A stretch of 30,313 nucleotides of DNA from a virus. Location: IMG/VR virus record IMGVR_UViG_3300025872_000208, positions 1-30,313 of that record; one strand, 5' to 3'. Within the stretch, counting starts at the first letter, position 1; each line of letters starts with the position of its first letter. Of this stretch, positions 3,659 to 29,378 are shown one piece after another. The notes under the pieces are model-generated. The model ran no database searches. It worked only from the letters and a program-made list of their open reading frames with translations, and was not told the origin of the DNA. The position numbers and the translations under genes were made by a program.

Positions 3659-5229
3659 TGGGAATCCTAGCAACCATCCGAGAGAAACTCTTTCCTGCTC
3701 CCGCTAACAAGTACGAGGGAGCGAGTCAGTCGTTGCGCCGGTCTTATCTGGACACGTCTTACACTTCTGCTCGTTTTGACGTCACCAGTTCGACCCGACA
3801 AGCCATTGTCCGTAAGTCGCGTTTCTTTGAACAGAACAACGCGATAATGAACAGATTGGGGGATCTGTTTGAGTCTTACACAGTTGGATCTTCGTTCTCC
3901 GTTCAACCCGCTTCTAGCGATCCTGCTTGGAATCTTAAGGCTAAGAAGTGGTTCGATATCTGGTGCCGATATCCCGATATCGGTTCCCGTCAGTCGTTCT
4001 CGACGCTCATGGGACAAGCCGCCCGTGGTTGGTTCTATGATGGGGAATCTTTTATTCTGCTTACCCGTGGAGAGAGCGGAAAGCCTCGGTTGCAGTTGAT
4101 CGAAGCCCAATCGGTGGCGACTCCGGTTGGCATGGAGTCAGACGAGACCGTGTTTGACGGAATCCGCTTTGATCCGCGCACTGGTCGCGCTGTTTCGTAT
4201 TTCATCGGTTCCGAGAAAACCCAAGGAAACCTCGTCGATGTTCGCTCCATTCCTGCGGATTCGGTCGTTCACATCTACGAGCCTAACCGGCCCGCCCAGC
4301 TTCGCGGTCTCCCATTTGTCTCTGCGGTCATCAATGACCTGCACGACCTCGACGATCTCCAAAAGCTTGAAATGGAAGCCTGCAAGCTCGGGGCTTCCGT
4401 CGCTCAAATCGTCAAAACCGTAAGTGGTGAAGTTCAAGCTTCCAGCCTCCGCGCTGGTATTGGTGCGAATGTAACGCCTAACACTGCTGAGACGTATTAC
4501 GAGCAAGTGTTCGGTTCTTCCGTTAAGGTTCTGAAGAACGGAGACACTTTCGAGCAGTTCGCCACCGAGCGTCCCGGTGTGAATATGCGGGAATACTGGC
4601 GGCAACTGACAGAAAAGGTCTGTGCCGGTGTTGGTATTCCTTATGTTCTGGTCTATCCAGAGTCCATGCAGGGAACGGTCTATCGCGGCGCGCTAGATAT
4701 GTCCGCTGTTTGGTTCCGATCGCGCCATCAGGTCATGGCTTCTGCTGCTCGACGTATTTACGAATACGTCATGGAGTACGCGATCAAGAGTGATCCCACT
4801 CTGAATGATGCTCCTTCTGATTGGTACGAAGTTTCAATCACTGCTCCTCGTTCTCCCAATGTTGATGTTGGCCGTAACTCGGCGGCTCAACTTGCTGAGT
4901 TGGAAGCCGGTGTTGTGACTTACGATGAGGTCTACGGTGCGCGTGGACTTGATTGGCGTTCTGCTCTTGAGGCTAAGGCTCAACAAGCTTTGTTTGTTCG
5001 TCAGTTGGCCGACAAATACAACGTTGATGTCTCTGAGATTTCGGTGATTCAGAAAGAGCGTCCTGCGGCTAGTGCTGCACCGGCTATTGACATTGAAGAT
5101 GATTCTTCTGAATCTCCGTTGCCAGTTGCTCCGTCTGAAGGTGGATCGCAACCGCTTGTTGTAGAACAAACGGAGGTTACCGCTAAAGCCAAAAAGCAAC
5201 GCAAGCCGCGAGCCAAGAAAACCGAATGA
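3658..5229 (+). CDS. portal protein (lambda family)
   Basis: A 523-aa portal protein that forms the dodecameric channel at one head vertex for DNA entry and exit. It has the hallmarks of the lambda gpB family. The N-terminal region is SxRxSYLDT-like, followed by RKSRFFEQNNAIMNRLGDLF. The stretch GWFYDGESFILLTRGESGKPRLQLIEAQ is characteristic (residues about 121-149), and the stem and crown segment includes YWRQLTEKVCAGVGIPYVL. The C-terminus is acidic and then ends in a Lys/Arg-rich tail (KAKKQRKPRAKK), which may face DNA. It overlaps the upstream stop by 1 bp, and its own stop overlaps the next ATG (ATGA at 5226-5229). Confidence 0.93.
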   Translation: MGILATIREKLFPAPANKYEGASQSLRRSYLDTSYTSARFDVTSSTRQAIVRKSRFFEQNNAIMNRLGDLFESYTVGSSFSVQPASSDPAWNLKAKKWFDIWCRYPDIGSRQSFSTLMGQAARGWFYDGESFILLTRGESGKPRLQLIEAQSVATPVGMESDETVFDGIRFDPRTGRAVSYFIGSEKTQGNLVDVRSIPADSVVHIYEPNRPAQLRGLPFVSAVINDLHDLDDLQKLEMEACKLGASVAQIVKTVSGEVQASSLRAGIGANVTPNTAETYYEQVFGSSVKVLKNGDTFEQFATERPGVNMREYWRQLTEKVCAGVGIPYVLVYPESMQGTVYRGALDMSAVWFRSRHQVMASAARRIYEYVMEYAIKSDPTLNDAPSDWYEVSITAPRSPNVDVGRNSAAQLAELEAGVVTYDEVYGARGLDWRSALEAKAQQALFVRQLADKYNVDVSEISVIQKERPAASAAPAIDIEDDSSESPLPVAPSEGGSQPLVVEQTEVTAKAKKQRKPRAKKTE

Positions 5230-7379
5230 GCTTCACCAAAAAGACTGACTGGCTCTATTATTCACCGGCAAATTCTGCTGGTGAGACTTCAACCATCCAG
5301 ATCTTCGATCAGATTGGGGAAGATTGGTATGGTGGTAGCGGTCTGTCTGCTAAGCAGTTCTCGGACGTCTTGAACGAGATCGGAAATGGTCCGCTCTTGG
5401 TCGAGATCAACAGTCCCGGTGGTAATGTCTGGGATGGTCTAAGCATTTACAATCAGTTGCGCGGTCGCAAAGCTCCGGTGACCACTCGGGTTGTCGGCAT
5501 TGCGGCTTCGATTGCTTCCATCATTGCTCTTGCCGGTGATCGCGTCGAGATGGCTGATGCCGCTCTGATGATGATTCACGATCCGAGCGGAATGGCTTCT
5601 GGCACTTCCGAGGATATGCGGAAGATGGCTGATGCTCTCGACCAACACGCCGAAGTGCTGGTTGGAGTGTACGCTAAGAAAACCGGCAGGTCTCCTGAGT
5701 CGATCCGCGCTGCAATGAAAGCGGAGACTTGGTTCACCACCGCCGAAGCTCTTGCTTTCGGTCTGGTGGATAAGCCAATCAAACAGCTTGCGATGGCTGC
5801 GAAGTGGCACCCTCGCGCTGTTACCAAGACCGCTCCCGAGACGGTCAAAAACAATCTCCGCCGAGGTCTTGAGCAGTACGCTGAAGGCTTGGCCGGAGAA
5901 GGTCTGGAGAAACAGACCGTTCTTGAGGCTGAATCTCTGGTCGCTGGAGAGCAGCCCACCGAAGATAAAGTCGAGAAGGCTAACGCTTGGTGGGGTCGCA
6001 ATGAGCGATTCCTTGAAGCCGAGCCTAATACTCCCGCCGATGTCGCTGCCAACCTTTGGGGTGGTGCGGCTGGACGCGACTGGTTCCGCGCTCTTTACGC
6101 TCAGTTGGAGCGTGAAGAACTGGAGGAAGATGATTCCCCAGACGATAAGATTTCGACCAACAGCACCAACGCTGAAGGCGAGGGTGGCGTGACCAACACG
6201 CCGCAACCAACACAAAACAACACCGACACAACCATGTCTGACACTACTACTGTGGCGGCTGCGGCTCCTGCTGCGTCCGTCGATCTTGCTGCCGTCCTCG
6301 CCAAGCTGGCGACGATTGAGGCCGCGATGAAGACCCCCACCGCCGCCCCTGCTCCCGAGCCGGTGCGTCCCGTGATTGAGAACCTCGGAAACCCGCTGCT
6401 GGAGAAGCATAAGAGCCTCCGCGCTGGCGCCGAGCGTCGCGCCTTCCTGATTGAGAATCACAGTGAGCTTCTCCGTCAGCAGAGCATCTTTGCTCCGCAG
6501 AACGCCAACACCTTCACCTCGACGCTGGTGGTGGATTACCTCGCTGATGCGGTCATCACTGTTGCCGCTACCAAGCTGGCTCTGGTGTCCGCTTTCTCCC
6601 GAAATGTGGGTCTGGATAACCTCCGCCCGAAGGCCACCGTTCGCGTCAAGAAGTTCACCACCGGAACCGCCGCTCAGGTGAACCCGACGAACTGGGAGAC
6701 CAACAACGATTCGACGCTTGCTGCCACCTCTGTCACCGTCGATCAGATCTCCAAGAACTTCACTGTCACGCAGGAGGAACTCAATCAGGGCTTCGCTCTG
6801 GCCGATCTCGCTCAGGGTTCCGCTGATCTGTTCGCGTACGGCATCAGCGACAAGCTGACCGCCGTGATGACCGCTGCCAACTACGGCACCGCGCTGACCA
6901 TCGGCACCGCTGCGAATTTCGACACCAGCGATCTCCCTGCGATCCTCGCTGCTGCCAAGAACTACCGCTCCAAGAACCTGATTCTGGACGGTGGCCATAT
7001 GGCTCGACTGTTGTTCAGCGGCACTCTGACCGCTGCCGCCGGTACGGTTCCGATCCCTGATGCTCGTTACGGCCCTCTCAACAACGGTCGTTTCGGATTC
7101 GATATCATCGCCGAAAACAACCGCTGGACTGGTGCTGAGACCAATGCGGCTGGTTTTGTGTGCGGTCCCGACGCTATCGCCATCGCCTCCGGTCTGCCGG
7201 TGGGCATGGTTGCCGGTGAGTTCATCGAACAGCGCACGGTCACGACCAACAACGGTCTGTCCTGCTTGCTCTCGGTCTGGTACTCCCGCGCTACCCGTAG
7301 CCACATGGCGTCCTATGACATCATGTTCGGTGCCGCCGCTGCGGATACCACTCAGGCCGAGGTTCTGATCACCGCCTAA
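5226..7379 (+). CDS. prohead protease (ClpP-like) fused to major capsid protein
   Basis: One open frame of 717 codons. Residues about 20-190 are a ClpP/S49-like prohead protease: EINSPGGNVWDG oxyanion segment, nucleophile Ser95 in GIAASIAS, His118 in MIHDPSG, and the ETWFTTAEALAFGLVD block, where Glu or Thr stands at the ClpP Asp position as in many phage relatives. Residues about 190-335 are charged and scaffold-like. From Met337 (ATG at 6234) comes an HK97-fold major capsid protein of about 381 aa, with an Ala/Pro-rich delta-like segment and then FTSTLVVDYLADAV onwards. Protease and capsid are usually separate genes. There is no stop between them here, so either a fusion is made and self-cleaved, or capsid protein is also started internally. 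Confidence 0.9.
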   Translation: MSFTKKTDWLYYSPANSAGETSTIQIFDQIGEDWYGGSGLSAKQFSDVLNEIGNGPLLVEINSPGGNVWDGLSIYNQLRGRKAPVTTRVVGIAASIASIIALAGDRVEMADAALMMIHDPSGMASGTSEDMRKMADALDQHAEVLVGVYAKKTGRSPESIRAAMKAETWFTTAEALAFGLVDKPIKQLAMAAKWHPRAVTKTAPETVKNNLRRGLEQYAEGLAGEGLEKQTVLEAESLVAGEQPTEDKVEKANAWWGRNERFLEAEPNTPADVAANLWGGAAGRDWFRALYAQLEREELEEDDSPDDKISTNSTNAEGEGGVTNTPQPTQNNTDTTMSDTTTVAAAAPAASVDLAAVLAKLATIEAAMKTPTAAPAPEPVRPVIENLGNPLLEKHKSLRAGAERRAFLIENHSELLRQQSIFAPQNANTFTSTLVVDYLADAVITVAATKLALVSAFSRNVGLDNLRPKATVRVKKFTTGTAAQVNPTNWETNNDSTLAATSVTVDQISKNFTVTQEELNQGFALADLAQGSADLFAYGISDKLTAVMTAANYGTALTIGTAANFDTSDLPAILAAAKNYRSKNLILDGGHMARLLFSGTLTAAAGTVPIPDARYGPLNNGRFGFDIIAENNRWTGAETNAAGFVCGPDAIAIASGLPVGMVAGEFIEQRTVTTNNGLSCLLSVWYSRATRSHMASYDIMFGAAAADTTQAEVLITA
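6234..7379 (+). CDS. possible independently initiated major capsid protein (internal in-frame start)
   Basis: An in-frame ATG at 6234 (codon 337 of the larger frame) would yield a 381-aa major capsid protein beginning MSDTTTV. The bases before it (aacaacaccgacacaaccATG) form the same A/C-rich leader found before free-standing late genes such as those at 12802 and 15846. Codon choice appears to shift to C/G-ending codons from about 6240, as expected for a very highly expressed gene. The upstream codons do not show this as strongly. A capsid protein needed in hundreds of copies would benefit from its own start. This is an inference; the fusion alone followed by proteolysis remains possible. Confidence 0.5.
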   Translation: MSDTTTVAAAAPAASVDLAAVLAKLATIEAAMKTPTAAPAPEPVRPVIENLGNPLLEKHKSLRAGAERRAFLIENHSELLRQQSIFAPQNANTFTSTLVVDYLADAVITVAATKLALVSAFSRNVGLDNLRPKATVRVKKFTTGTAAQVNPTNWETNNDSTLAATSVTVDQISKNFTVTQEELNQGFALADLAQGSADLFAYGISDKLTAVMTAANYGTALTIGTAANFDTSDLPAILAAAKNYRSKNLILDGGHMARLLFSGTLTAAAGTVPIPDARYGPLNNGRFGFDIIAENNRWTGAETNAAGFVCGPDAIAIASGLPVGMVAGEFIEQRTVTTNNGLSCLLSVWYSRATRSHMASYDIMFGAAAADTTQAEVLITA

Positions 7380-7390
7380 TCCTAACGGAT

Positions 7391-7567
7391 ATGCGACTCG
7401 CAACCACTATTGCGGTGGACCGGAACGGTAAGAGCAAAATCGTTTCTGGTCCCGATGTTGACGCGACTCTCCAGCGCGACAGCTTCAACACCGCGAGCGT
7501 CCCCGAAGGAGGCAAGCTCATCCTGTGGATACAGGGAGCCTTAGCACCGAAAGTCCGAAAAGGTTAA
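7391..7567 (+). CDS. small hypothetical protein after the capsid gene
   Basis: A 58-aa frame starting MRLATTIAVDRNG and ending GALAPKVRKG, 11 bp after the capsid stop. The leader is TAATCCTAACGGAT, without a clear Shine-Dalgarno sequence. Codon use is like the neighbours and the frame fills the gap neatly. I do not recognise it. A short beta-rich protein at this position could be a capsid accessory or decoration protein, but that is positional guesswork. Confidence 0.55.
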   Translation: MRLATTIAVDRNGKSKIVSGPDVDATLQRDSFNTASVPEGGKLILWIQGALAPKVRKG

Positions 7568-12309: not shown

Positions 12310-12788
12310 ATGCCGCAGCGATTAGAGCCGAAAGAGCTATTGCCGATTGGCTTGCAACTGTTGATTGGTCCAGCTCTCTTCTTGGAACTCCAAGCTTTCT
12401 AACCTCTTACGGGAAAGGCGCGTTCAATGATCCTGACTTGGAAGACAGGATGCCAGATTTTCCTAGGATCGTAATCAGCGTTACGCAATCAAATCCGGTG
12501 ATGCCGAAAGACACCACTTGCGAAATGACCGTCAGGGTTGATTTGCAGGTTTCTGCTGATGATTCGACGGAAACTCAGATCCTATCAGTTGTCAGAGTGT
12601 TTGAGAATGCTCTACAAGACCTGTTCCTTGAAGGTGGAGCGTCAATCTTGAATGCTTCAAGCTCCAACGACAACGGAGCATTTACAGCTCAGTTTGCAAC
12701 ACCGACAGATTTTGGTTCTACAAACGTGAGCGACAGATCTAGAGTATTTTCCAGAACTTTGACACTATTTGCTTCCGCAACAACCTAA
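12306..12788 (+). CDS. putative tail terminator protein
   Basis: A 160-aa protein with an N-terminal helix (AIRAERAIADWLATV) and then alternating strands (PRIVISVTQSNPVM, CEMTVRVDLQVSA) and a helix (ILSVVRVFENALQDLFL). This is the alpha/beta pattern of lambda gpU-type tail terminators. It stands directly before the tail tube candidate, the normal order. The terminator ring caps the finished tail tube and joins it to the head. Recognition is by pattern and order. Confidence 0.55.
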   Translation: MNAAAIRAERAIADWLATVDWSSSLLGTPSFLTSYGKGAFNDPDLEDRMPDFPRIVISVTQSNPVMPKDTTCEMTVRVDLQVSADDSTETQILSVVRVFENALQDLFLEGGASILNASSSNDNGAFTAQFATPTDFGSTNVSDRSRVFSRTLTLFASATT

Positions 12789-19576: not shown

Positions 19577-19786
19577 ATGAAATGCCCGTCCTGTCAGCAT
19601 ATTTTTGCCGTTAGCTTGCGCGAGATCGCGCAGGAGATGGGGCGGAAATCTTCACCGGCAAAGGCCCAAACCGCTCGCGTAAATGGAAAGCGCGGGGGGA
19701 GGCCAAGGAAGACATATGAAACAAGAGTTGATCCCAAGTCAGAAGCAGTCCGCGCTCGCAATAATGGCGAGCAAATTCAACGTTGA
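19577..19786 (+). CDS. small CxxC / AT-hook-like basic protein
   Basis: A 69-aa protein from the ATG at 19577, the first ATG after the promoter/operator. The N-terminus has MKCPSCQHIF, one CxxC pair able to form half of a zinc knuckle. The middle has ARVNGKRGGRPRKTYETR, an AT-hook-like GRPRK core flanked by basic residues. It is probably a small DNA-binding protein. Its last 71 bp overlap the start of the annealing-protein gene in another frame. Function is not known, but leading the recombination operon suggests a regulatory or accessory role. Confidence 0.55.
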   Translation: MKCPSCQHIFAVSLREIAQEMGRKSSPAKAQTARVNGKRGGRPRKTYETRVDPKSEAVRARNNGEQIQR

Positions 19787-20378
19787 ACCGGTTCGTTTGC
19801 TGGAGACGCTGAAGGCTACGTTGATGCCAAAAGCGTCGAACGAAGAGCTTCTCTCCTTCGTAGTCACGGCTAACCAGTACGGGTTGAATCCGTTCACTCG
19901 CGAGATCTACGCATTCCCTGCTCGCAATGGTGGCATTCAGCCGGTGGTCAGTGTCGATGGCTGGATTAAGATGATGAACAGCCATCCGAGCTTCGATGGC
20001 ATTCAATTCACGACCGAAGACAAAGACGGAAAGCCGTGGAGCGTGACCGCAACCATTCACGTCAAAGATCGCGCCCATCCCGTGGAGGTCACCGAATACT
20101 TCTCGGAGTGTTCACGCAACACCGAGCCGTGGAAGGTCAACCCCCGTCGAATGCTCCGACACAAAGCTCTGATCCAATGCGCTCGCGTTGCTTTCGGATT
20201 CTCTGGTATCAGCGACGAGGAAGAAGCCATACCGCAAGTCGCGCTCAACGTCACGCCGTCTCGACCAATCTTCCGGTCAAAGCTGGAGCCGACTGTCGAG
20301 CCTCCGACAGTGATCCCAAGCGTTAGCGTCGAAACCAACGCCCAAACCACCACCGAGGAAGGAGCGACCAATGAATGA
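19716..20378 (+). CDS. RecT/Bet-family single-strand annealing protein
   Basis: A 220-aa recombinase. Its core (FVVTANQYGLNPFTREIYAF, IQPVVSVDGWIKMMN, the CSRNTEPWKVNPRRMLRHKA segment and IQCARVAFGFSGI) matches the Bet/RecT family. These proteins anneal complementary single strands made by a partner exonuclease. The C-terminal 45 residues are low-complexity and probably flexible. The ATG at 19716 follows AAGGAAG at good spacing; an ATG at 19683 would add 11 residues. The next gene encodes a nuclease, as in RecE/RecT and Exo/Bet pairs, and overlaps by 8 bp. Confidence 0.85.
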   Translation: MKQELIPSQKQSALAIMASKFNVEPVRLLETLKATLMPKASNEELLSFVVTANQYGLNPFTREIYAFPARNGGIQPVVSVDGWIKMMNSHPSFDGIQFTTEDKDGKPWSVTATIHVKDRAHPVEVTEYFSECSRNTEPWKVNPRRMLRHKALIQCARVAFGFSGISDEEEAIPQVALNVTPSRPIFRSKLEPTVEPPTVIPSVSVETNAQTTTEEGATNE

Positions 20379-21474
20379 CGAACGATTGGGTTTGCCTTCC
20401 GCATCCTCCGCGAGCCGGTATGCCGCTTGTCTCGGAAGTTGGCAGTTGGAGAAGCAGATTGCCGAAGGACCGGCAACCAATGACGCGACGATTGGTAACC
20501 GCATCCACGCTGCTCTTGCAAAGGATCACGTCAAAGACCTAACCGAGGATGAGATGGAGATCGTTTTGCGATGCTCCGCTCAAGAGGAGGATTTGGTCAA
20601 AGTCACGTTTGCTGGCTCCGAGGAAGAACCAAACGTCTTCCGCGAGAAGCGTCTCTGGTCAATCGACGAGAACGGCAAGAAGCTTTGGAGCGGAAAGCCG
20701 GATGTCATTTACACCAACGGTCCAGTTGGTCTGATCATCGACTACAAGACGGGTCGCGGCGCAGTCGAGAACGCTGCCGAGAACCTTCAGTTGCGGTGCT
20801 TGGTCGCTCTGCTCGACGAGAACTTTGGGTTCACGTTTGAGAAGATCACGGTTGCAATCATCCAACCGCTTGCAGGTGTCCCAAGTGTTGCAGTCTACGA
20901 ATCTGGGGACATTCGGAATGCAATCGCTGAATCAGCGGCTTTGATGGATGACATCCAGAAGCTTGGTCAACCGCGCACTCCTTCCGAGTCCGCTTGCCGG
21001 TACTGCAAAGGAAAGCCCTATTGCGCCGAAGCGCGGGAGTTGGCCGTCGCTGGTCCTCTTGCGAATGCGCCAGAAGGCATAACGCCAGACGCTATAGCCG
21101 CCACACTGACCAACCAGACGCTTGCAGCGTTCTTGGATCGTGCAGCGCAAGCGGAGGCCGTAATCGAAGCTTGCCGCAATGAGGCACGACGGAGGCTTGC
21201 AGAAGGTGATACGGTCGAAGGGTGGACGCTCAAAGAAGGTGCAGTGCGTGAGACAATCAAAGACACCGAGACCGTTTACCTTCGATTTATCGAAAGTGGC
21301 GGGACTTACGAGGACATCATGCCAGCAATCACGATCAACAAGACGAAGCTCAAAGATGCGTTGAAAGTGGCAACCGAAACCAAAGGAAAGGAACTGGACG
21401 CAAAGCTGACCGCTCTGCTCGACGGATGTATCGAATCGAAAGCCTCACAACCCACACTGACCCGAATCAAATGA
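20371..21474 (+). CDS. Cas4/AddB-like PD-(D/E)XK exonuclease (DUF2800-like)
   Basis: A 367-aa nuclease. It has a RecB-type core: His46 (GNRIHAAL), Asp111 (SGKPDVIY), Asp124-Tyr-Lys126 (IIDYKTGRG) and the later helix NLQLRCLVALL. Cys20 (RYAACLGSW) near the N-terminus plus Cys209, Cys212 and Cys218 (ACRYCKGKPYC) after the core match the four-cysteine arrangement that holds a 4Fe-4S cluster in AddB and Cas4. The opening LPSASSASRYAACLGSW resembles DUF2800 phage nucleases. It probably resects DNA ends for the annealing protein encoded just upstream. The remaining C-terminal 140 residues are helical and less conserved. Confidence 0.82.
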   Translation: MNDERLGLPSASSASRYAACLGSWQLEKQIAEGPATNDATIGNRIHAALAKDHVKDLTEDEMEIVLRCSAQEEDLVKVTFAGSEEEPNVFREKRLWSIDENGKKLWSGKPDVIYTNGPVGLIIDYKTGRGAVENAAENLQLRCLVALLDENFGFTFEKITVAIIQPLAGVPSVAVYESGDIRNAIAESAALMDDIQKLGQPRTPSESACRYCKGKPYCAEARELAVAGPLANAPEGITPDAIAATLTNQTLAAFLDRAAQAEAVIEACRNEARRRLAEGDTVEGWTLKEGAVRETIKDTETVYLRFIESGGTYEDIMPAITINKTKLKDALKVATETKGKELDAKLTALLDGCIESKASQPTLTRIK

Positions 21475-24187: not shown

Positions 24188-24471
24188 GCCATCATGTTCG
24201 TGACGCCACGAAAATGATCAGCAAAACCCCGCGCACAGACCGGCAGCCGTACATCACGGTTGGTTTCACCGAGTTCGTGAAGGCTGGCTTCGCCCGTCAG
24301 CTAGAGCGGCAACTGGCCGGAGCCAACAAGCGGATCGTCGAGCTGGAGAAGGAGAATGAACGCATCCACAGATTGGAACGTGCTGGGGATATGCTGTGCG
24401 CTGCTGCCGCCTTCCTAGGCTGGCATGGTGAGATTGAGCAATGGAACAGGGTGAAGGTGAGGAAGCCGTGA
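24184..24471 (+). CDS. small coiled-coil protein, paralogue B
   Basis: A 95-aa protein from the ATG at 24184 (GGGGAGG 6 bases upstream, ATGA overlap). Residues about 40-70 form a coiled coil (QLERQLAGANKRIVELEKEN) running into ERIHRLERAGDML, followed by AAAAFLGWHGEIEQWNRVK. It shares this module and its ribosome binding site context with the gene before, evidence of local duplication. Function unknown; similar coiled-coil proteins are common accessory genes in phages. Confidence 0.55.
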   Translation: MSHHVRDATKMISKTPRTDRQPYITVGFTEFVKAGFARQLERQLAGANKRIVELEKENERIHRLERAGDMLCAAAAFLGWHGEIEQWNRVKVRKP

Positions 24472-26866: not shown

Positions 26867-27355
26867 ATGACATACTCAGAAAAGCTCCAAGATCCTAGGT
26901 GGCAGAAAAAGCGGCTCGAAATCATGTCTAGAGACGCATTTGCATGCCGCAAATGCCAATCAAAGACAAACAGCCTAACGGTTCATCACTTCTATTATGT
27001 AGCAAGAAGGAATCCGTGGGAATATCCACGCAATTCAATGGTGACAATTTGCAGAGACTGTCATCGGGAGGCTCACAAAGACGATTCAAGCCTGAGATTG
27101 GATTTTTTCAATTCGTGGGAAACCAGTGCAGGAATTGAAATCGCGAGGCAAATTTCGATGGTTGAGCAGGACATTAACCATGATGAAGGATGCTTATTTT
27201 TCATTGAAAGAGCCGCATACGAAATTGGATGGCCACCTTTCGAAATTCTGCATCTTTTGAAAGACGCCGCTGAACATGGAATAATGACAGATGAATGGCT
27301 TATGAACTTAAGGAAGCAAATTCCTTCTAGTGATATTGAGGAAAACGAACAATGA
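26867..27355 (+). CDS. HNH endonuclease-like protein
   Basis: A 162-aa protein. Residues about 10-75 hold an HNH fold: DPRWQKKRLEIMSRDAFACR, then CRKCQ, LTVHHFYYVARR (the paired His) and ICRDCHREAHK, with two CxxC pairs for structural zinc. The C-terminal 85 residues are helical and acidic, not part of the nuclease. It stands just before the replication initiator and overlaps it (ATGA at 27352). HNH proteins in phages may be homing endonucleases, host-DNA nucleases or packaging helpers; which is not clear here. Confidence 0.72.
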   Translation: MTYSEKLQDPRWQKKRLEIMSRDAFACRKCQSKTNSLTVHHFYYVARRNPWEYPRNSMVTICRDCHREAHKDDSSLRLDFFNSWETSAGIEIARQISMVEQDINHDEGCLFFIERAAYEIGWPPFEILHLLKDAAEHGIMTDEWLMNLRKQIPSSDIEENEQ

Positions 27356-28086
27356 GAATTAGATCTATTAAACCAGAGTTCTGGGAATCTGAAAGTCTCG
27401 GGAGAGTATCAAGAGAAGCTAGGCTCCTTTTCATCGGACTCTTCTCATGTTGCGATGATGTCGGGAGGGCTCGCGCATCCTCGCGACTCCTCGCGAGCCG
27501 TCTTTTCCCTTACGATGATGACGCTTTCAAGAAGCTTCCAGCGTGGATTGCTGAACTTGAAAGGGAGGGTTGCGTTCGGCTCTATCAGGTTGCCGGTGAA
27601 TCATATCTGGATATCCCAAAATGGCTGAATCACCAGAAAATCGACAAACCTTCGGCGTCCAAGCTCCCGGCATTCGACGATACTCGCGAGGATTCGCGAG
27701 GATTCGAGAAAAATAGCCTTGGAACAGGGAACAGGGAAGAGGAACAGGGAAAGGAACAGGAGACATTCTTCGTTTCGGAGGTTCCCGTGAAACCTCTTTG
27801 GGGTGTTAAGTTTGGATTGATGCTTCCAGAGAATCTGCAGACTGATGAATGCCTTTCGGCTCTTGAGACTTGGCTTGCTTATAAAGCTGAACGAAAACAA
27901 GGATATAAGCGAATCGGATTATCCGAAGCTCTTAAATCTTGGTCGAAGGAATTTAACAAAGACACATTCCCGTCTGCCGTCATTAACTCCATTGCTAATA
28001 ATTATCAGGGTCTATTTGCTCCGAGAGCTGCACTTCAAATTCAAACTCCTCAGAAAAAGGAACTCGACTGGAGGGATAGCCTGTGA
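27352..28086 (+). CDS. replication initiator (lambda O / DnaD-like)
   Basis: A 244-aa protein. The N-terminus (MRIRSIKPEFWESESLGRVS, REARLLFIGLFSCCDDVGRA) is the winged-helix start typical of phage replication initiation and helicase-loading proteins. A low-complexity charged linker (residues about 108-140) separates it from a helical C-terminal domain that could contact the helicase (ALETWLAYKAERKQGYKRIG, LKSWSKEFNKDTF). The linker is encoded by iteron-like repeats (27685-27760), the arrangement seen for ori inside lambda gene O. The helicase gene follows with a GTGA overlap. Confidence 0.72.
   Translation: MRIRSIKPEFWESESLGRVSREARLLFIGLFSCCDDVGRARASSRLLASRLFPYDDDAFKKLPAWIAELEREGCVRLYQVAGESYLDIPKWLNHQKIDKPSASKLPAFDDTREDSRGFEKNSLGTGNREEEQGKEQETFFVSEVPVKPLWGVKFGLMLPENLQTDECLSALETWLAYKAERKQGYKRIGLSEALKSWSKEFNKDTFPSAVINSIANNYQGLFAPRAALQIQTPQKKELDWRDSL
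27685..27760 (+). repeat. iteron-like repeats inside the initiator gene (candidate ori)
   Basis: CGCGAGGATT occurs twice back to back at 27685 and 27695. GGAACAGG occurs four times at 27721, 27728, 27741 and 27753. A short A-rich stretch lies between the two arrays. All are on the same strand within 76 bp of the linker-coding part of the initiator gene. In lambda-type phages the initiator binds iterons inside its own gene. Confidence 0.55.
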
Positions 28087-29378
28087 GCAGCCCATACTTC
28101 TCGGAAGAAGACGAGTTCGGTTTAATCGGAGCTTGTTTGACTGGAACTCTGGACACTTGCGCTGATGCGCTCGCTGAAGTCCGAAGCGACTGGATCGAAC
28201 ATCAATCGCTCAAAGACACCTACGAGGTAATTCGTTCGCTGACTCAACAGAACCGCGCACCAAGCCTTCCTGAGCTTGGGAAGGAATGGAAGAAGCTGAA
28301 CGGCAACCAGCCCATCCCTTTCGAGGACTGGAACAAAGCGATGGAAGTCTGTCCGTCACCGGCAAACCTTCCATACTACGTCAAAGGCATAGCAGAAGCC
28401 GCTCACCGTCGCCAGCTAAGGCTCGCAGGAGACCGCCTTATACGCGAGTCCGCTGTCCTGACACTTCCGACAGATCAAATCGTCTCTAATGCCGAAGCAG
28501 GACTCAGCATTGAGGTCTCTAGGGAGACTCTCTCAACGTCAAAACAGGTCGCGGGGTCGTTCATCGACGCGATGCAGGAAAGATTCAGCCGAAAAGGCAC
28601 GCTCTCGGGAGTGACCACTGGCTTCCATTGGCTCGACGACAAGACCGATGGTTTGCAGCACGGTGAGCTTGCCATAATTGCGGCTCGTCCATCTATAGGT
28701 AAAACGGCAATCGCCATCGCCATTGCCGAAGCAGCAGCGGTCAGAGCTAAGATCCCAACGCTGTTCATTTCGCTTGAGATGTCGAAGGAGGCGATCTTCA
28801 GACGATCCGTCGCATCTATCGGGAGCGTTCCAATGCAGAACCTTAAGAGCGGAAACCTCAACGAGGGGGATATGCGCTCAATGAGCCAAGCATCTGCAAA
28901 GCTCGCAAGCAGTCCGCTCTGGTTCTTGGATGGCTCAAGTTCTCAAAGCATCGCCAGCATCACCGCCAATATCCGCAGAGCAGTGCGAAAACACAAAGTG
29001 CGGCTTGTGATTATAGACTATCTCCAGAAGGTAAAGGCAGCCGAGAAGTCCGAAAAACGCACCTATGAAGTCGCAGAGGTCAGCGGTAAGCTCAAAGACA
29101 TTGCAGTCCAGACCGGAGTGGCTCTGCTATCATTAGCTCAGTTGAACCGAGAGAACGAGAAGGACAAAGGCAGACAACCTCGTCTGACTGATCTAGCGGA
29201 CTCCGGTCAGATCGAACGTGACGCTGACCTTGTGATGCTACTAGACCGAGATCGAAAGCAGTCGAAAGGTGAAGCCTCAATCGTCATCGCAAAGCAACGC
29301 GACGGTGAGTGTGGCCTAGTCAAGCTTTGGTATGATGGGCAATTCTGCAGGTTCTCAGAGCCTCCCATAGATACCTAA
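28083..29378 (+). CDS. DnaB-like replicative helicase
   Basis: A 431-aa helicase that would unwind DNA at the replication fork as a hexamer. The N-terminal domain (1-110) is shorter than in host DnaB. The RecA-like core has GVTTGFHWLDDKTDGLQHGE, Walker A at 201-208 (ARPSIGKT), TLFISLEMSKEAI, Walker B at 309-314 (VIIDYL), LLSLAQLNRE, and the closing DSGQIERDADLVMLLDR. All key motifs are intact. The GTG at 28083 overlaps the initiator stop. No primase domain is present, so priming would use the host enzyme. Confidence 0.9.
   Translation: MSSPYFSEEDEFGLIGACLTGTLDTCADALAEVRSDWIEHQSLKDTYEVIRSLTQQNRAPSLPELGKEWKKLNGNQPIPFEDWNKAMEVCPSPANLPYYVKGIAEAAHRRQLRLAGDRLIRESAVLTLPTDQIVSNAEAGLSIEVSRETLSTSKQVAGSFIDAMQERFSRKGTLSGVTTGFHWLDDKTDGLQHGELAIIAARPSIGKTAIAIAIAEAAAVRAKIPTLFISLEMSKEAIFRRSVASIGSVPMQNLKSGNLNEGDMRSMSQASAKLASSPLWFLDGSSSQSIASITANIRRAVRKHKVRLVIIDYLQKVKAAEKSEKRTYEVAEVSGKLKDIAVQTGVALLSLAQLNRENEKDKGRQPRLTDLADSGQIERDADLVMLLDRDRKQSKGEASIVIAKQRDGECGLVKLWYDGQFCRFSEPPIDT

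Follow-up and report, generated by a model that had tools for sequence, protein, structure and literature searches.

The window analysed here is the whole stretch of 30,313 nucleotides of the linear virus record IMGVR_UViG_3300025872_000208. Its nearest genome match (73%) lies in an Acetobacteraceae bin. Towards the end of the window lies a gene for a phage replication initiator (Table 1). It overlaps the start of the next open reading frame (ORF; 28086 versus 28083), whose matches to PF03796 and PHROG 19 confirm the proposal of an earlier note on this DNA that a DnaB-like helicase gene follows directly. Elsewhere, a recombination module (19683-21474) consists of adjacent genes for a Bet-like annealing protein and an exonuclease. 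The head-gene region includes a 717-aa ORF (5226-7379), which, judged by eye, looks like a fusion of protease and major capsid protein; a 654-aa open frame (5439-7403) is present on the opposite strand.

Table 1. Features of the initiator region (positions are those of the window)
Feature	Position	Strand	Evidence
Phage replication initiator gene, 244 aa	27352..28086	+	ORF; PHROG 2149 and 1408; AlphaFold2 model
Cluster A: TCGCG at 27471, 27481 and 27491 (10-bp phase), inside winged-helix code	27463..27504	+	
Cluster B: two iterons TCGCGAGGAT and a degenerate third copy, where the linker code begins; opposite in orientation to cluster A	27684..27709	+	
Disordered linker code, residues 121-147	27712..27792	+	pLDDT <50 (predicted model)
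Purine-rich array: GGAACAGG at 27721, 27728, 27741 and 27753	27721..27760	+	
C-terminal helical domain code, residues 165-215; swapped for other domains in relatives	27844..27996	+	
DnaB-type replicative helicase gene	28083..29378	+	PF03796 E 5.5e-75; PHROG 19 E 8.5e-82

The N-terminal domain of the initiator matches the profiles of three PHROG replication initiation families: 2149 (E 8e-36), 1408 (E 5e-34) and 16167 (E 2e-27). The C-terminal part matches a different family, PHROG 678 (replication initiation, O-like), weakly (E 8e-4). The protein had been called O/DnaD-like. The O-like match is confined to the C-terminal part and is weak, and a profile search detects neither a DnaD nor a DnaT domain in the window initiator. 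A DnaT C-terminal domain is present in the relative Tyrion and in 2 of the 21 relatives that were profile-searched. The same type of search gave no Pfam match at all for the window initiator, including the RepA_N domain (PF06970), and for the 21 relatives it gave DnaT alone. The N-terminal domain has no match in NCBIfam or Pfam, and its profile found nothing significant among the sequences of solved structures.

The AlphaFold2 model includes a confident winged helix (approximately residues 1-112) followed by the linker and a helical C-terminal domain. Foldseek returned general winged helices only (best E 0.026). The best structural matches over residues 1-105 include 4pql (Z 8.1), 4pt7 (7.6), 5kbj (7.6) and 4pta (7.1), with many other winged helices at similar Z, values that can simply reflect a common arrangement. 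These four, whose titles name an initiator or a Rep protein, are RepA_N proteins.

The earlier note reported two tandem copies of CGCGAGGATT and four copies of GGAACAGG within 76 bp. All were found (span 27685-27760), the decamers lying at 27685-27694 and 27695-27704, 10 bp apart. Two other elements were absent from that description. One is a further, altered copy of the decamer, ending in TCGAGA, with which cluster B reaches 27709. The other is cluster A, which is hidden by codon choice in the winged-helix code and whose match with the linker array is a 27-nt inverted repeat. The assignment of the repeats to the linker code stands for cluster B and the purine-rich array; cluster A is located in the code of the structured DNA-binding domain. 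Given the pLDDT of less than 50 at residues 121-147, the linker repeats lie in, or directly before, a stretch that is predicted to be disordered.

This concentration of repeats is exceptional in the window. The 80 nt at 27681 contain 16 repeated 8-mers, the highest value in the 30 kb (the best outside the gene is 5), and 1,000 permutations of the codons of the initiator gene gave a maximum of 9 per 80 nt. TCGCG-N5-TCGCG has five matches against 0.13 expected in 30 kb, and these are confined to the initiator gene. GGAACAGG occurs seven times where 1.0 copies would be expected by chance in the window; three of the copies are single and lie outside the initiator gene (at 24443 and 24649 and, on the minus strand, at 12620).

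Many relatives, found in widely different bacteria, share this layout with repeats inside the initiator gene. Searching viral contigs with the protein yielded 61 loci. Loci L001-L035 retain the pairing of this N-terminal domain with a linker that bears repeats while the C-terminal domain is of several different types, and the repeats persist, with point changes, in all 35. The switch to a different C-terminal domain occurs directly after the repeats in these loci; the domain is DnaT-like in Tyrion and in some relatives. The exact 20-mer formed by the two decamers was found in 24 of 2.9 million viral contigs, each time in the linker of an ORF with this N-terminal domain. The comparison with homologues that the earlier note had suggested thus supports its reading: the repeats are present in relatives sharing the N-terminal domain.

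It could be argued that only the protein matters, that is, that a flexible charged linker is needed and that slippage made DNA repeats without any function as DNA. The predicted disorder of the linker agrees with this. However, in a sister family (MARIRTIKPEFPQ...) the linker repeats, TCGCGAATCC, are the reverse complement of the window unit, GGATTCGCGA, and encode SSRILANPRE, whereas the window unit encodes REDSRGFE. In the 24 contigs the 20-mer is also on the opposite strand, so that another peptide is encoded. One DNA unit is therefore read both ways at the same place, for which a cause at the peptide level provides no explanation.

To obtain an unbiased set, 160 loci were picked by their N-terminal domain alone, giving 97 with distinct linkers. 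Their linker DNA matches itself at lags of 10, 11, 20 and 21 with z values of 11.4, 11.2, 7.7 and 6.4 over a synonymous null and of 10.3, 7.4, 6.3 and 7.5 over permutation of each linker's own codons, values that are inflated by relatedness (N-domain code at repeat-free lags reaches approximately 5 to 7 in size). Within the first 72 nt of the linker, strong local repeats are confined to lags of 10, 11, 20, 21 and 22, in 28, 8, 11, 5 and 3 sequences, compared with 9.1, 2.6, 1.4, 0.4 and 0.8 expected from permuted codons; none occur in the C-terminal control code of the same 97 relatives. These lags represent one or two helical turns and are mostly not multiples of three. Such periods, which codon-permuted controls fail to reproduce, are a second argument against a role for the protein alone.

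Cluster A provides a third, since it is located in a folded domain and its codons hardly vary. Among 46 members of the window and sister families, selected by thinning, the conservation of synonymous codons reaches z 14-38 over most of 27463-27504 (for example, CGA is used in 96% compared with 19% in the pooled code, GCG in 98% compared with 36% and TCG in 98% compared with 29%). Beyond this segment there are only isolated fixed codons, the highest at 27625 (z 19). Judged by these codon patterns, the arrays are under selection as DNA as well as protein.

Clusters A and B also change together. The repeat word varies with the subfamily (TCGCGA; TTCCAAGAAC; TCACTGAG; TCCGGA; TACGGTA; TCCAGTA) but, despite these differences, A and B within one genome carry a matching word. 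They share 6.70 7-mers per genome; permuted codons give 2.66, and the C-part code gives 1.99. For the diverse families the value is 5.61, against 2.45 when A and B are taken from mismatched genomes (maximum 3.61 of 300). For the window and sister families the matched and mismatched values are 7.81 and 7.23; here the word is uniform and mismatching genomes is expected to change little. The distances between words shared by A and B are spread evenly over the three frames (415, 415 and 357). Co-variation in all frame offsets is again difficult to reconcile with selection on the peptide alone.

Codon conservation could, in principle, be due to a hairpin in the RNA or to translation starting internally, instead of to DNA sites. 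For the window and sister families, the predicted folding of cluster A is slightly stronger than that of synonymous controls (mean z -1.8). The window also has, at 27780-27789, a GGAGG and, five bases further on, an in-frame GTG (27787), from which a C-terminal product might be made. However, a second set of families gives no folding signal, in-frame start codons are not enriched after the purine units across the family, and neither a hairpin nor an internal start predicts that A and B should carry matching words. We consider this explanation extremely unlikely.

An exact copy of the IHF consensus, WATCAANNNNTTR, is found at one fixed position between A and B in 20 of the 49 non-redundant members of the second set. 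Codon permutation gives an expectation of 2.3 and a maximum of 6. The codons at this position (AGC AAA ATC ... TTA) are strongly fixed (z 19-26) in this set. The window family is without the IHF site.

Matching A and B words followed by a purine array can be seen in named phages of several hosts: Butters (Mycobacterium), PFR1 (Propionibacterium), BigBern1 (Bifidobacterium) and PSonyx (Corynebacterium), together with Austintatious (Streptomyces), where the spacing is less regular. Tyrion (Enterobacter) and P12026 (Marinomonas) carry the IHF consensus as well. By the same test the arrays were not seen in HK639 (L386), IFTN8 (L391) or D14C (L393). These three form a more distant branch, with a protein start of MARARNIKP or MARSRNIKP. 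In HK639 the initiator gene lies after cI, cro and cII and before a P-type gene, where lambda has O. A Klebsiella phage-like record has it in the same position, ahead of the gene for replication protein P. Homologues occur in 243 Mycobacterium and 130 Gordonia records. Matches in a plasmid collection were considered as independent proof of a plasmid replicon and were set aside, those examined being phage-like records.

Because C-terminal domains are swapped directly after the repeats, the repeats might be thought of as recombination joints for domain exchange. This would leave unexplained a cluster inside domain code, a period of one helical turn, the co-variation of A and B and the IHF consensus, and there is little room for it as the main explanation. 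Exchange at the repeats may instead be a side effect.

Most relatives include a purine-rich GGAACAG-type array after cluster B. The 97 linkers contain 82 copies of GGAACAG, compared with 34.5 +/- 3.4 for permuted codons and 7.6 +/- 2.6 for the codon use of the gene body. In addition, 86% of their linker glycines are encoded by GGA or GGG, compared with 43% elsewhere, a bias that counts against a role for the protein alone. A search with DNA alone leads back to the same genes: contigs with GGAACAG at period 7 have the array in such an initiator in 72 of 120 cases, those with GGAACAG at period 8 in 113 of 119 and those with GGATCAAG at period 7 in 21 of 22. For the control heptamer CTGATTC the figure is 1 of 45. 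The idea that CTGATTC in HK639-type relatives represents an antisense heptamer (GGAATCAG on the reverse strand) was dropped on this result. In the other 48 of the 120 viral contigs (for example, L091, L098, L139 and L152) a GGGAACA heptamer array lies outside initiator genes, on both strands and sometimes in long runs.

The period-7 arrays lend some support to an explanation by protein alone. The GGGAACA heptamer encodes the same hydrophilic peptide in every frame, within these genes it invariably runs in the sense direction, and its presence outside them indicates that such a repeat can arise elsewhere. The period-7 peptide is hydrophilic in the sense direction only, so the orientation of the array is no evidence either way. 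On the other hand, a constant GGAACAG core is kept at periods of 7, 8 and 9, which give different peptides, and this is evidence for a role as DNA. Taken with the arguments above, it makes the protein-only explanation very unlikely.

The earlier note placed the GGAACAGG copies together with the decamers in its candidate origin. They are probably a separate module and not iterons, since their sequence stays the same across subfamilies that differ in iteron word. We propose, tentatively and as less likely than its alternatives, that the GGAACAG-type array is a conserved origin module common to actinobacterial and proteobacterial phages while the iterons diverge. It would be a G+A-rich opening or helicase-loading element that replaces an AT-rich unwinding element, possibly via a stable RNA-DNA hybrid formed by transcription of the initiator gene. 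Help from such a hybrid over the purine array is speculation.

An origin located within the gene of its initiator has precedents. In lambda and the Stx phages, the iterons are found halfway along gene O and an AT-rich tract adjoins them (PMC7466680). The genes described here resemble lambda O and ori-lambda in that the iterons are in mid-gene, the gene belongs to the early replication region and a P or helicase gene comes next. They differ in that the iterons are approximately 10-11 bp and form two clusters, one in winged-helix code, followed by a G+A-rich array. The comparison with a lambda-type origin made in the earlier note therefore needs qualification: it is right about iterons in mid-gene, but there is no AT-rich tract beside the linker iterons and a second cluster lies in domain code. 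Rep proteins of RepA_N plasmids (for example, pSK41 Rep) have a winged-helix N-terminal domain, Rep boxes in the code of a dispensable linker and a host-specific, exchangeable C-terminal domain (PMC5703833). The repeats in linker code and the exchangeable C-terminal domain are shared, as may be the type of winged helix, whereas the PF06970 match is missing here and nothing stated for RepA_N plasmids corresponds to the two clusters, the IHF consensus or the GGAACAG array. The oriL repeats of SPP1 are bound by the initiator gp38 inside its own gene 38, with helicase genes nearby (PMC6316719). Repeats within the initiator gene and a helicase gene close by are again common to both, but SPP1 differs in its second origin and in its AT-rich unwinding element. 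Finally, the origin of RepA-type mycobacterial prophage replicons (Miko, Jeeves) is thought to lie in or beside repA, with no repeated motifs in the region searched (PMC7157519); the resemblance to these is one of layout. Our best reading, from the sequence features tested, is that the window system works like lambda ori and the RepA_N origins and is a member of neither group.

The arrays might also be sites at which the initiator binds its own gene, for autoregulation or to shut it off, with the origin elsewhere. Same-word clusters within a gene would fit any self-binding role. However, an operator would be expected upstream of the gene, and the iteron words are not enriched there or elsewhere in the loci. 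In the known analogues (lambda, RepA_N and SPP1) the in-gene sites are the origin, and an IHF site and a neighbouring helicase gene suit an origin better. Autoregulation as the sole role is therefore unlikely.

The explanation that we favour for the whole, and consider very likely, is that the gene at 27352-28086 encodes a phage replication initiator and includes its own iteron origin. This agrees with the candidate origin proposed earlier inside the initiator gene, and the repeats in homologues and the selection at codon level argue for it; origin activity itself is a prediction. It is built on direct observations of the repeats, codon-level conservation, co-variation of A and B, the IHF consensus in relatives and the gene context. 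From these we infer binding of the protein, opening of the DNA, loading of the helicase and the role of the GGAACAG array. The N-terminal winged helix would bind the short iterons of A and B, which are spaced one helical turn apart, and the initiators on the two clusters would join in one complex across approximately 200 bp. In many relatives IHF, at the site between A and B, would bend the DNA. The complex would then open nearby DNA, and the GGAACAG array (27721-27760) is a candidate for the segment that opens or that the helicase enters. Recruitment of this helicase, the product of the next gene, would be aided by the C-terminal domain, which in some relatives is DnaT-like.

Base composition gives limited guidance on the place of opening. 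Cumulative GC skew, a check named in the earlier note, gave no turning point of use for the window or for four complete relatives. Among the 97 relatives there is no AT-rich tract beside cluster B (G+C after the cluster is approximately 0.51-0.57). They do show a modest dip in G+C, to 0.40, directly before the HQ codon, between A and B, which could be an alternative place of opening.

The literature searched, in which subscription journals are thinly covered, contains no description of these arrays in this initiator family. By that measure, the novel elements are the GGAACAG array, the IHF consensus built into the gene and the pair of co-varying clusters, one of which is in domain code. If the proposal is correct, the origins of many phages could be placed within a few hundred base pairs from sequence alone, even where the gene is annotated only as replication initiation or hypothetical protein. 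The code of a folded DNA-binding domain would, through its choice of codons, also contain sites of an origin, and the two arrays, which change together as the protein diverges, represent a natural data set for the co-evolution of a winged helix and its sites. These phages would also provide compact, testable replicons with a conserved G+A-rich element.
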